Shown: in pieces, positions 5,600-24,766 of the stretch
Position numbering within the stretch: the stretch's first letter is position 1
Layout: the number at the start of each line of letters is the position of its first letter
IMG/VR virus record: IMGVR_UViG_3300025120_000009
Span: 1-34,348 of that record
Source of the DNA: a virus
Length of the DNA: 34,348 bases
Direction: 5' to 3' (one strand)
Made by a program: the position numbers and the translations under genes
Notes under the pieces: model-generated
The model's database searches: none
What the model was told of the DNA's origin: nothing
The model's input: the letters and a program-made list of their open reading frames with translations, nothing else

Positions 5600-6666
5600 G
5601 AAATTTATTATGCGGGTTATTATTACTTAGTTCTGTGTACGCACAAGACTTTTTTAAATTCAGCACAATATACGGTGCTTATAGTTTTAGTAGTCCAGTA
5701 ACAAAAGAATTACAATATCAAGTATCTGGAGGACAACTCCAAGAGTTGCGAGAAGAGCTAGAAGATCATACCGTTATGACTTTCGGTATTAGAAAGTTAG
5801 CTAGATTTGGCTATGAAAATAAGCCTGAAGTTTGGTATACAGGCAAAGAAGCACCTATCAATGAAAGTGCTGCTATTGGTAACATACCAACTGGTTGGGA
5901 ATATGTTATAGAATATTCTGACCATAGAGAATTTGATGAAAAGTTTAAAAATCAACAGTATATGCTTAGGTATATGGGAAAACATTTTATTGCTAAAATG
6001 AATTACGACTTCAGAGGATTAGAAGATGTTGAATTTGCAGGATTAGATATGCGAGTAAAAAAAGACTTTGGTAATCTTGCTTTATCTTTAGGTATTGCAG
6101 GTAGAAGCCACCCAGCATACTTAGACTTTAGACCTATTGATTTATGGTGGGCAGAACAAGGAATTGACACAGATGAATTTACACCCTTTTGGGATTTTGC
6201 TTATTTCTATGGCTATACAGATGAATTTGTAGAGCAGTTTACGCAATACGGATATAGTTACTTTGATTTTAAATGGTACAACGCAGAAGGCGAGCTTGTT
6301 GCTAACACAGATGACCAATTTTATAAACAAGTATACGGGGAAATTGTAAGAGATTATAATGAGGAATGGGCAAAAGATAAGGGCTATCAAAATGAATTAA
6401 GTTTGTCAGTAGGTGCGGATTACTACAAGTATACACCTAAGAACTGGTTTCACTTCTGGGCAACTGCATACCCCGTAACTAAGGGTATGTCCGATTATTC
6501 ATTTAACTACGATGTAGCGGAAAATGGCATGGATTACGATCTAGGTTTAGTCTATGGCTGGAAACTTACCAAAAAGTTTGGAGTATTTTTAGAGGGAAGA
6601 TACCTTAATATGTACGATGTGCAATCATATGAATCAAAGATTGGATTTAATTGGTTGATTTATTAA
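5596..6666 (+). CDS. Phage-encoded outer-membrane beta-barrel-like protein
   Basis: A 356-residue protein with SD AAGGAG and an overlap with the upstream thioredoxin-like gene. Residues 1-16 are a signal peptide ending SSVYA, with cleavage before QDFF. The mature part has no cysteine, is rich in Tyr, Phe and Trp, and alternates polar and hydrophobic residues in strand-like stretches (for example NLALSLGIAG, ELSLSVGADYYKY, MDYDLGLVYGW, KFGVFLEGRYL). It ends ESKIGFNWLIY with a terminal aromatic residue, the usual barrel-assembly signal of outer-membrane proteins. A role in changing the host surface (superinfection exclusion, receptor masking or outer-membrane disruption during lysis) fits the location beside lysis genes. 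No family is recognised. Confidence 0.65.
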   Translation: MRNLLCGLLLLSSVYAQDFFKFSTIYGAYSFSSPVTKELQYQVSGGQLQELREELEDHTVMTFGIRKLARFGYENKPEVWYTGKEAPINESAAIGNIPTGWEYVIEYSDHREFDEKFKNQQYMLRYMGKHFIAKMNYDFRGLEDVEFAGLDMRVKKDFGNLALSLGIAGRSHPAYLDFRPIDLWWAEQGIDTDEFTPFWDFAYFYGYTDEFVEQFTQYGYSYFDFKWYNAEGELVANTDDQFYKQVYGEIVRDYNEEWAKDKGYQNELSLSVGADYYKYTPKNWFHFWATAYPVTKGMSDYSFNYDVAENGMDYDLGLVYGWKLTKKFGVFLEGRYLNMYDVQSYESKIGFNWLIY

Positions 6667-9800: not shown

Positions 9801-10823
9801 ATGGCAAACTTAAAAGCAGCATTTTCTCCAAAAGAATTTGAATTGGCTGTTGCACACGAAGCAACGGTAGGAACAGCAAGTACATCTGTAGGAGATTATA
9901 AATTAATTAATATTGATTCAATAGAAATGCCTTCATTGAATCCACAGCAAGTTTTAGATGTAAGACATGGAGCAGGAAGAACTATGAAAGCAGTAGATAT
10001 GTTTTTGTCTAATAATCTTACAATCAAAGAAATAAGTTTTTCAGGAATTGCAGACGAAACTATTTTACCTAAGTTAGTTAAAAACATTACACAAGATGCA
10101 GATGGTGCTTCTTCTATACCTGTAGGTTACGACCCTGAAGAAATGCAAGTAGGCGGAACTCAAATTGCTGGTAGCACTACTGTTGCAGACTGTGGTACTT
10201 TTAGCGTTCTTTTAAATGTTCCAGAAGCAAACAATTCTATGATGTTTGTTGGTTGTGTTCTAACATCACTAACAATTAGTGGAGATATTTCTGAAGAGTC
10301 AGGAAGAATCAAAATATCAGGAACTTTTAAAACTGGTATGAAACCAGTATTTACCAATAATTTAAATCCATCAAGCACAGCTCATTTTAACACAAATTAT
10401 TTTGTAACTGACTACGAAGGAACAAATGCAGCACAAGTGATTGCTGGTGTGACTTCTCCTATTATGAAGTCATTTAGCTGTACCATAGAAAACGATGCAC
10501 AGTTTATGGGTTTTGACTCATCTGGTAATCATCAAATTATTGGTAGAGCATTTCCTGAGTGCGTTGTAACATTTGAATCAGTTTTAAAATATGACGCAGA
10601 TACAGATGGTTTGGTAGCATCTTTTGAAAGCCAATCTACTGGAACGGTAATTAATACCTTAACTGGTAAAGACGGTGCAACTAGAAATATAGACTTTTCA
10701 ATACCAAAAGCAATAATTACAGATGTAGGTTTTTCAGAAGAAGAAGCTATGTTTATGTCAGTAAGTACAAAAGCAGTTGCTGGTACTGGCAATACAGATC
10801 TTATTGCTATTACAATACAATAA
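9801..10823 (+). CDS. Major tail tube protein
   Basis: A 340-residue protein with SD AGAGG. It begins AAFSPKEFELAVAHEATVG, and has alternating beta strands (NLTIKEISFSGIA, TSLTISGDISEESGRIKISG) typical of tail-tube folds; the region from about 240 to 330 repeats beta-rich elements and may be an added surface domain. It directly precedes the two frameshifted chaperone genes and the tape measure gene, which is the invariable position of the tube protein in siphoviruses. Confidence 0.75.
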   Translation: MANLKAAFSPKEFELAVAHEATVGTASTSVGDYKLINIDSIEMPSLNPQQVLDVRHGAGRTMKAVDMFLSNNLTIKEISFSGIADETILPKLVKNITQDADGASSIPVGYDPEEMQVGGTQIAGSTTVADCGTFSVLLNVPEANNSMMFVGCVLTSLTISGDISEESGRIKISGTFKTGMKPVFTNNLNPSSTAHFNTNYFVTDYEGTNAAQVIAGVTSPIMKSFSCTIENDAQFMGFDSSGNHQIIGRAFPECVVTFESVLKYDADTDGLVASFESQSTGTVINTLTGKDGATRNIDFSIPKAIITDVGFSEEEAMFMSVSTKAVAGTGNTDLIAITIQ

Positions 10824-16556: not shown

Positions 16557-17057
16557 TTATTCGTTAAGATCCCTTTTTAATTGAGCAAATATGCCTGGAT
16601 CAACACCCCAACCCACTATCATGCTTGGAAATGGAGCAGAATTAGGTAATTTGCCCTCATTGTTGTAAAAAGTTACCCTGCCTTTTATAAAAATAATTTC
16701 TGCTGATTTATAAATGTAGTTATGAAACCATTTAGTATCAGTTCTGGCAGGTAGTAAAGCTACGGTTACACTTCCATTGTCAAAATATTGATCGTAAGCT
16801 CGTTTTATAAATTTGTCCATGCCTCTACTATAGGGCGGATTCATATAGTTTAAACAATACCAGTCGTTTGTTAAGCAGCTAAAATCCTTTGTAAAATAGT
16901 TGTCGCACAGAGCATTGTCATCATCGGCACAAACATCGCACTCAAACTCGTAATAAGAGTCAAGCAGCTCGAATAGTTCGTAGGGTGTATGCCAATCATC
17001 TTTTTCGGATCTAAAAGCTACATCTTGATAAAATCTACCTTCTGCTTTTTTTGCCAT
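16557..17057 (-). CDS. Phage DNA N6-adenine methyltransferase (Dam type)
   Basis: A 166-residue protein preceded by SD AGGAG. It has DDWHTPYELFELL at the N-terminus, a Cys-containing FECDVCADDDNALCDNYFT, and the catalytic motif MNPPYSRG (NPPY). These features match the phage N-6-adenine methyltransferase family (Dam). It is the last gene of the leftward replication operon. It could protect phage DNA from host restriction or mark phage DNA for replication or packaging; the recognition site is not visible from the sequence. Confidence 0.92.
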   Translation of the reverse strand: MAKKAEGRFYQDVAFRSEKDDWHTPYELFELLDSYYEFECDVCADDDNALCDNYFTKDFSCLTNDWYCLNYMNPPYSRGMDKFIKRAYDQYFDNGSVTVALLPARTDTKWFHNYIYKSAEIIFIKGRVTFYNNEGKLPNSAPFPSMIVGWGVDPGIFAQLKRDLNE

Positions 17058-17077
17058 ATTTTTCTCCTATTATATTT

Positions 17078-17214
17078 TTAGGGCAACTAGTAGCCAACTT
17101 TATTTACAAACAATAATCTTATTTAGAGCATAAACAAGGGGTAAGACAGGATTGGTTACCTGCGACACTCCTTCAAATGTCTTAATTTATTGTTGTTTTA
17201 AAATGTTGCCCTAA
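17078..17214 (-). ncRNA. Candidate structured RNA element between two replication-operon genes
   Basis: Ten-base arms TTAGGGCAAC (17078-17087) and GTTGCCCTAA (17205-17214) are perfect inverted repeats enclosing two more nested pairs: AACAATAA (17109-17116) with TTATTGTT (17187-17194), and TAAGACA (17142-17148) with TGTCTTA (17178-17184). A short hairpin CAGG (17147-17150) with CCTG (17159-17162) is an alternative in the centre. It starts four bases after the stop of the preceding gene on the minus strand and ends about 20 bases before the Dam start. No ORF fits. It could be a structured intercistronic RNA, a processing site or a DNA cruciform. Confidence 0.45.
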
Positions 17215-17218
17215 TTTG

Positions 17219-17428
17219 TTAAAATGGTAAATCTTCTGATTTTGGTTTAGGAATAGAAAAAGATAGTCCGTAATATTTCTTACCACCTTTACTTTCATTA
17301 ATCCAAGCGGATACATTATACAATGTTCCATTTACGTTTGCTTGTCCAGTATAGTCTGGGTGCGTGTCTTTTTCTTTTCTGTCGTTTTTAAAAATAGAAC
17401 CTTTGTTTTCTTTGTGTTCGTAAGCCAT
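17219..17428 (-). CDS. Small conserved protein, possibly DNA-binding (DUF736-like)
   Basis: A 69-residue protein. The ATG at 17428 was chosen because it overlaps the upstream stop (TAATG) and has GGAG nine bases ahead; a TTG 15 bases earlier is less likely. The core GSIFKNDRKEKDTHPDYTG followed by YNVSAWINESKGGKKYYGLSF is a pattern I know from small beta-barrel-like proteins in phages and proteobacteria, thought by some to bind single-stranded DNA. In this replication operon that role is plausible, but it is inference. Confidence 0.65.
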   Translation of the reverse strand: MAYEHKENKGSIFKNDRKEKDTHPDYTGQANVNGTLYNVSAWINESKGGKKYYGLSFSIPKPKSEDLPF

Positions 17429-17721
17429 TATTTTAATCTCCAAGTGTATGTTTTTCTTCCTGCTGATCCTAATACCTTTTTATCTGTTTTTACAAGTCTA
17501 TCACGATTTGTTAAATCAGTAATTGCTCTGCGTATAGATGTTAATGGTGTTTGTTCATTAATTGATTCATTGTCAATTAAAAAACCCCAAACATCATTAG
17601 CAGACAGACTATCATTAGGATATGTTTGAAATACTGCCAACGTTAGTTGTGTTTGATTGTCAGCTTTTTCAAAATTTGTTTTTAGCAAATTGCCTGTTTC
17701 GTTTGTTGTATTGTAGTACAT
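17428..17721 (-). CDS. Winged-helix-like protein
   Basis: A 97-residue protein starting MYYNTTNETG with SD AAAGGAGAG directly ahead; an upstream ATG at 17781 would add a hydrophobic stretch but has no ribosome site. The sequence TQLTLAVFQTYPNDSLSANDVWGFL, then TSIRRAITDLTNRDRLVKTD, and a final RKTYTWRLK follows the layout of a winged helix-turn-helix (helix, recognition helix, two-strand wing). It is probably a DNA-binding regulator or accessory replication protein. Confidence 0.65.
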   Translation of the reverse strand: MYYNTTNETGNLLKTNFEKADNQTQLTLAVFQTYPNDSLSANDVWGFLIDNESINEQTPLTSIRRAITDLTNRDRLVKTDKKVLGSAGRKTYTWRLK

Positions 17722-24226: not shown

Positions 24227-24298
24227 TTAAATCCTTTTAATCAATTCCCAGATTATGAGGTTTGCAATTACTAAAGCTGCTAAATTTAAGTATATCAT
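24227..24298 (-). CDS. Micro-protein: single membrane helix, 23 residues
   Basis: The reverse strand reads MIYLNLAALVIANLIIWELI plus KRI and TAA: one transmembrane helix with a positive end. The ATG overlaps the TGA of the upstream gene (ATGA) and GGAGG lies seven bases ahead. It is the second such micro-protein in the genome. The function is unknown; membrane-inhibitor or regulator roles are plausible. Confidence 0.6.
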   Translation of the reverse strand: MIYLNLAALVIANLIIWELIKRI

Positions 24299-24504
24299 TT
24301 TTGAACCTCCGAAGTATAGCTTGTTAATTCTTCTATAAATTCTTCATCGCAATTATCATTGTAGCAGATGTAGAAATGCTCTGGGTATGTTGTTTGGTCT
24401 AAACACAAAACCAGTTCTTCCGTGTTTGAATCCGTGTAGCTCATTTCTGCGACCTTATCAGAACCACAAGAACCGCAAATTAATCTGTCTTCTTCATATT
24501 TCAT
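24295..24504 (-). CDS. Small zinc-ribbon-like protein
   Basis: A 69-residue protein with an AAGGA leader. It has LICGSCGSDKVAEMSY and later YICYNDNCDEEFIEE, giving CxxC ... C-x4-C, a zinc-ribbon pattern, in an acidic context. The terminal codons overlap the start of the membrane micro-protein. No family is recognised. Confidence 0.7.
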   Translation of the reverse strand: MKYEEDRLICGSCGSDKVAEMSYTDSNTEELVLCLDQTTYPEHFYICYNDNCDEEFIEELTSYTSEVQK

Positions 24505-24506
24505 TG

Positions 24507-24531
24507 TTTGTTTTTTCCTTTTATTGTTAGT
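24507..24531 (-). repeat. 25-base gene-junction repeat, copy 1
   Basis: Identical over 25 bases to 24769-24793 (core CCTTTTATTGTTAG). Read on the minus strand it contains the TAA stop of the upstream gene and the AAAAGGA ribosome site of the gene that follows, i.e. the whole junction between two genes. Confidence 0.9.
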
Positions 24532-24766
24532 ATAATTCTAGTTTTGAAAAATCCTGCTCAGGTTGAAAATTTACTTCAAATTGAACATAGGATAAATACT
24601 CTGTATTACTATCAACTATATCTGTAAAGTCTCCACTAATTAGACTAATAATTTCTTCTAGGTTTTGATTTACAAGATTGTCTATTTCTATAGCGTGTTC
24701 TTTTTTTCCGTTCTTAATTTCAATATCGAACGCTGTTTGACTTTGATAAAATCCTTCATATTCCAT
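24527..24766 (-). CDS. Small acidic early protein
   Basis: A 79-residue protein between the two junction repeats. It has EYEGFYQSQTAFDIEIKNGKK followed by an acidic helix DNLVNQNLEEIISLISG and SYVQFEVNFQPEQD. It is acidic and could be an anti-restriction or host-interacting protein, but this is only by composition. No family is recognised. Confidence 0.65.
   Translation of the reverse strand: MEYEGFYQSQTAFDIEIKNGKKEHAIEIDNLVNQNLEEIISLISGDFTDIVDSNTEYLSYVQFEVNFQPEQDFSKLELY

Follow-up and report, generated by a model that had tools for sequence, protein, structure and literature searches.

A previously unnamed, covarying RNA domain in the replication operons of uncultivated phages

The window analysed here, a 34,348-nucleotide stretch of viral DNA (IMG/VR record IMGVR_UViG_3300025120_000009, positions 1 to 34,348), carries in a single intergenic gap of its replication operon a 137-base element that is real and is the point from which an unnamed, very strongly covarying RNA family was recovered. 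That the RNA itself is real is virtually certain, since compensatory changes in its stems exceed those in both shuffled and slid controls. The family, in which shape rather than sequence is preserved, is found here only in uncultivated phages, which we refer to as marine from the kind of samples and the relatives rather than record by record. As to function, we infer a cis-acting intercistronic leader controlling the gene downstream of it and transcribed as part of the replication operon, our best reading, to which we give about even odds. Whatever its role, the element marks the edge of a swappable, methyltransferase-rich cassette inside phage replication modules, and provides a short, testable RNA for studying the timing of host-takeover and anti-restriction gene expression in such phages.

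Architecture of the element

On the minus strand of the window, an SSB-like gene has its stop codon 4 bases ahead of the element, and AGGAG and the Dam gene come next (Table 1). Read 5' to 3', the order is P1, P2, hairpin A, hairpin B, linker, P2 return, hairpin C and P1 return: a stem closes the whole, a second, AU-rich stem lies within it, and the loops of the three small hairpins hardly vary. In P1 the sequence is free and the pairing fixed: it reads TTAGGGCAAC/GTTGCCCTAA in the window and GACGGACAGA/TCTGTCCGTC, TTGGCCTAC/GTAGGCCAA and others in relatives. The arms of P2 also differ in sequence between classes, support being weak within any one class, and we regard this stem as probable.

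Table 1. Features of the element and of its flanking genes in the window.
Feature	Position	Strand	Basis or remark
Whole structured RNA element	17078..17214	minus	RNA position 1 = 17214; 137 bases
Upstream gene, SSB-like, C-terminus ..EDLPF	17219..17443	minus	phrog_18154, E 2e-12
Closing stem P1, 5' arm (UUAGGGCAAC)	17205..17214	minus	both-side changes: 8/10 pairs in alignment A3, 9/9 in larger set
AU-rich stem P2, 5' arm (AACAAUAA)	17187..17194	minus	arms complementary, same place, in most classes (probable stem)
Hairpin A, GACAU...GUGUC	17164..17181	minus	both-side changes in 5/5 pairs (42-sequence alignment)
Hairpin B, GCAGG-UAACCAAU-CCUGU	17146..17163	minus	most conserved part, nearly invariant
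Linker CCUU, possible pseudoknot with hairpin A AAGG	17136..17139	minus	90.5% of cells paired, no covariation
AU-rich stem P2, 3' arm (UUAUUGUU)	17109..17116	minus	same basis as 5' arm
Hairpin C, built around UGGCU; its loop may kiss that of hairpin B	17088..17100	minus	consensus fold
Closing stem P1, 3' arm (GUUGCCCUAA)	17078..17087	minus	same covariation as 5' arm
Shine-Dalgarno AGGAG of Dam gene, directly past element	17064..17068	minus	sequence
Downstream gene, Dam DNA N6-adenine methyltransferase	16557..17057	minus	PF05869, E 4e-32

Hairpin A has an invariant AAGG in its loop (17170-17173) and arms that read GGCAU/GUGUC, GACUG/CAGUC, GGCUG/CAGUC, CGCUU/AAGCG, AUGGC/GUCAU and others in relatives. 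Hairpin B has the consensus GCAGG-UAAYCAAY-CCUGY, with GUAGG/CCUAC in L165, and the linker is commonly ACCCUUU. Hairpin C, whose loop carries UGGC and of which the window copy keeps three pairs, begins with a C-G, G-C, A-U or U-A pair in different phages. The three hairpin loops probably touch one another: pairing between loops B and C, like that between AAGG and CCUU, is compatible with the alignment (91.4% of cells paired for the former), these pseudoknots being judged by pair counts only, and neither contact is proven, as both are all but constant in sequence. In L024, L038, L095 and L165 the minimum-energy fold differs, with other partners for AAGG/CCUU and for the 5' strand of hairpin A; this could reflect a switch with two states, or the limitations of an energy model that is blind to pseudoknots.

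Covariation and folding energy

A covariance model built from members of the family (R1) recovers them with E-values down to 2e-27, and also finds members outside its building set (L086, 2.5e-8; L095, 5e-4). In the alignment of 42 distinct sequences fitted to this model, 97.8% of stem cells pair, changes on both sides are seen in 16 of 19 pairs, the covariation score is 0.452 vs 0.118 in shuffles, and none of 500 shuffles reaches any of five measures, while sliding the partners by one column lowers pairing to only 42-44%. A MAFFT alignment that was not fitted to the structure (A3) gives much the same picture, with 98.0% of cells paired, a covariation of 0.302 vs 0.096 and again none of 500 shuffles as good, the double-sided changes all falling within the closing stem. 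When folded unguided by RNAalifold, A3 yields the closing stem and hairpins A and B again, plus a third hairpin, C. A structured RNA is thus strongly supported on both alignments: P1 and hairpin A are kept by compensatory changes, and hairpins B and C are conserved. The first-pass annotation had named the absence of compensatory changes across related phages as the result that would count against it; the opposite was found.

Covariation also confirms the outer stem and identifies the minus strand, on which the genes are read, as the RNA. Hairpin A has five pairs, two of which are conserved G-U wobbles (34 of about 41 sequences have GU or UG there), and so is the first pair of hairpin B (GU in 39 of 42). 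Because these would be A-C mismatches on the opposite strand, the functional molecule is RNA (or single-stranded DNA) of the same sense as the genes. This bears on the idea, raised in the earlier annotation, that a DNA structure is used here in replication. Inverted repeats lying within a replication module do invite such a reading, be it a cruciform or a replication origin, but wobbles conserved on one strand only, the shared direction of element and neighbouring genes and the conserved unpaired loops make it very improbable.

Within the window, the minus-strand fold is more stable than all of 200 dinucleotide shuffles (z -4.2), and so is the plus-strand fold (200 of 200, z -3.9). The first-pass annotation listed three nested, collinear, perfect inverted repeats; all of them are present, but this description captures the true structure only in part. 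The 10-base repeat and the 8-base repeat AACAATAA/TTATTGTT are stems of the RNA, their arms being those of P1 and P2 in Table 1. The 7-base inner repeat TAAGACA/TGTCTTA (17142-17148/17178-17184), however, is not conserved across relatives, 66.4% of its cells being paired vs 63.7% in shuffles; it was rejected as a stem, and its 5' arm instead pairs with GTGTC to form hairpin A.

Relatives and distribution

Pattern scans uncovered about 60 homologous copies on 58 viral contigs (given here L handles), in addition to the window. The first pattern, TTAGGGCAACN{100,130}GTTGCCCTAA, consisted of the 10-base arms only, with a free interior, and matched eight viral contigs, all of which have a homologous element of 133-142 bases just past an SSB-like gene. 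The conserved core GGAGTGTCGCAGGTAANCAATCC brought out 45 contigs in the viral scan, and looser patterns added the distant members L086, L090 (two copies), L095, L102, L104, L112, L123, L126, L127, L128, L137, L165, L176 and L185. Four wider scans of the viral contigs gave few or no extra members, and because further scans brought none, little of the family should be left to find in that collection at the sensitivity used, which is that of scans keyed on the conserved core that miss copies differing there. Among the records searched whole, 29 of 31 hold one copy and two hold two. In 84,980 bacterial and archaeal genomes the 16-base core had 37 matches, none showing the element, and isolated-phage records returned only chance matches of about 20-40 bases. 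A tblastn search for the phage host with the terminase and exonuclease found only distant relatives, in many phages.

Genomic context and possible function

The element is co-oriented with its neighbours in the copies examined. In most of them an SSB-like gene ending in ..DDLPF stops 4-5 bases 5' of it, a distance that grows to about 70 bases in L010, L041 and L126. Other classes sit in modules for replication/recombination, near genes resembling those for an exonuclease, a Holliday-junction resolvase or DnaB. In the L022-L043 group an unrelated gene lies upstream, and in the GroES-associated copies L095 and L137 SSB is not directly upstream. The gene that follows is variable. The next gene is Dam in the window, L014 and L044, a C5 methylase in L012 and an N6/N4 methylase in L027 and L028 (in L030 it is the second gene). 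L045 has a methyltransferase too, judged by its SPPY motif, in a protein without a Pfam match. Elsewhere the next gene encodes a 48-aa protein, a DUF5681-like protein (L017), a sigma-region-4-like protein (L024) or GroES (L095; after a short ORF in L137). In many loci a swappable cassette, in which DNA methyltransferases (Dam, C5, N6/N4) abound, lies downstream of the element. Related phages have it in the same place, and the L022-L043 group shows such a cassette at another, unrelated site as well.

Position and orientation favour the leader reading: in most copies the 3' end comes 6-9 bases ahead of the next start codon or directly ahead of the next Shine-Dalgarno. By eye, L086 has a sigma70-like promoter (TTGACT, 17 bases, TAATAT) directly upstream of the element, and no separate terminator was seen between the element and the next gene; both are as expected of a leader. 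The near-invariant loops suggest recognition by something. One may picture a conserved folded RNA domain carried inside the replication-operon transcript and locked when the loop of hairpin B kisses that of hairpin C and the AAGG of hairpin A pairs with CCUU. With P1 closed, a stable stem would lie within the footprint of an initiating 30S subunit, and translation of the downstream gene would depend on the folding state of the domain, which might respond to a metabolite, to how far infection has progressed, or to a phage protein, the neighbouring SSB for instance. It counts against this reading that no alternative structure overlapping the start site was established. Structure and position would also suit a riboswitch-type aptamer in a 5' leader, the associated genes being heterogeneous. 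The control of Dam levels proposed in the first-pass annotation survives in part: the element does occupy the place expected for a leader of the gene that follows, but that gene is often not Dam, and a Dam-specific device was rejected on this variation among relatives. A SAM or SAH riboswitch, attractive given methyltransferases directly next to the element or one gene further on, was also rejected, since GroES, sigma-like and small genes are misfits; no Rfam SAM/SAH family matches the element. Known self-cleaving ribozymes were likewise discarded, none having been recognised and none matching in Rfam.

Arguing against a leader is the finding that the next gene varies in function while the element score stays identical (in L017, L020, L044, L045 and L046), which a stand-alone RNA would explain too, as are the single copy in most records and the few start codons at least 54 bases away. 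The main rival is a phage RNA that would act in trans, either cleaved out of the replication operon transcript or transcribed from that operon, and would bind a protein (of host or phage), the ribosome or some other RNA; we hold it to be unlikely without dismissing it. It would fit a domain closed as a whole by one stem, usually single-copy and conserved in sequence while the neighbouring gene is swapped, as well as the promoter of L086 and the terminator-like hairpin directly upstream of the element in L038 and L104 (both by eye). Against it stand the sense shared with the neighbours, the fact that no terminator was seen before the next gene and, in these compact operons, the tight distance from the 3' end to the next start codon or Shine-Dalgarno.

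This spacing falls into distinct classes. Before about eight unrelated genes, only 6-9 bases separate the end of P1 from the ATG and there is no Shine-Dalgarno. In most other copies the start codon lies 14-23 bases away, nearly always with a Shine-Dalgarno, and in a minority it is at least 54 bases off, L038 having none within 260 bases of the element. The comparison is crude, the same test finding a Shine-Dalgarno in only about half of the long ORFs in these contigs. The short class is a concrete case of starts that lack this site and keep a fixed spacing to a folded domain, and it raises the prospect of a ribosome-recruiting RNA akin to a bacterial intergenic IRES, the fold replacing the Shine-Dalgarno and setting the 30S subunit on the start codon. 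The AAGG(AG) in the loop of hairpin A, and the presence of a Shine-Dalgarno before many genes of these phages, would be in keeping with this. However, an ordinary Shine-Dalgarno follows other copies, the window included, AAGG may pair with CCUU instead, and with the crude test absence of the site weighs little; we therefore find this explanation distinctly improbable, if less so than a DNA structure.

The upstream neighbour suggests yet another possibility, namely a structure at the 3' end of the SSB-like gene that processes or protects the mRNA (as an RNase cleavage site or exonuclease barrier), or a site of SSB autoregulation. The start of most copies 4-5 bases (of some, about 70) past the SSB-like stop and the location of other copies in replication/recombination modules speak for it. 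Processing stems, however, need no near-invariant loops, and the copies that follow unrelated genes, or do not directly follow SSB, speak against it; we rate this account as rather improbable. The obvious precedent for feedback is the autoregulatory pseudoknot of T4 gene 32, a small structure 5' of the regulated gene. The resemblance lies in a structured RNA beside a phage SSB gene, whereas the present element is 3' of SSB, not in the leader of the regulated gene, and is conserved even without an SSB neighbour.

Comparison with known RNAs

No Rfam 15 covariance model matches the window element, and its relative in L006 was also negative. Riboswitches of the purine type are three-way junctions with kissing loops; the element resembles them in its closing stem, its junctions and a probable loop-loop contact, but has two junctions, an unrelated sequence and no Rfam match. 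In its way of working, the element may be closest to leader motifs described in phages. The manA RNA (RF01745) is a structured RNA of marine phages found in potential 5' UTRs of varied genes, and the wcaG motif (RF01761) is a marine/cyanophage cis-regulatory candidate associated with exopolysaccharide and high-light genes (PMC2864571). The former shares with the element a closing stem and adjacent hairpins, the last manA hairpin having GGUA..AAYCC around its loop, but the order and number of helices differ. In the window manA gives no match at the gathering score and is absent from matches up to E=10, and R1 finds nothing in loci with manA-like RNAs, which the search pattern had brought up by favouring that hairpin, except one match at chance level. 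Membership in manA was thus rejected, model matches failing in either direction. The wcaG motif differs in its tie to exopolysaccharide and high-light genes, and here too the window element has no Rfam match.

Other observations

A manA-like RNA is present in L174 at 1728-1868 (23.5 bits, below the Rfam cut-off; E 2e-4), where a hairpin of the GGUA..AAYCC type is seen, the search pattern having favoured that hairpin. Similar RNAs occur in L143, L147, L153, L160, L173 and L188. These contigs are from phages and rich in tRNAs, and several also have a tmRNA or a GOLLD RNA. L149, L152, L157, L164, L166, L175 and L184, contigs of 1.2-4.1 kb, contain another kind of structured segment, which is GC-rich, has a comparable GGUAACCAACCC hairpin and in most of them lies near a contig end.

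Several loci carry a second element, about 67 bases long and also an inverted repeat (TGGCAAGA...TCTTGCCA, with a conserved CACRATAAGCGAAAGCAAATATATGAAAAAC inside), which separates the main one from the next start codon (L006 at about 6116-6195 on the minus strand, L127 at 1520-1600, L044 at 10142-10230, and L046). A search of Rfam at this second element returned nothing, and it is possibly another unnamed RNA. Other short hairpin-like blocks, seen by eye, flank the main element in L010 (ACTGCCAgGTGT/ACACtTGGCAGT, about 2057-2126) and lie downstream of it in L104 (AAAGCTGTC/GACAGCTTT). Finally, elsewhere in the window, the small neighbouring genes at 24295-24504 and 24527-24766 (minus strand) have the leader CAATAAAAGGAAAAAACAAA in common and similar starts, suggesting that the pair arose by duplication.
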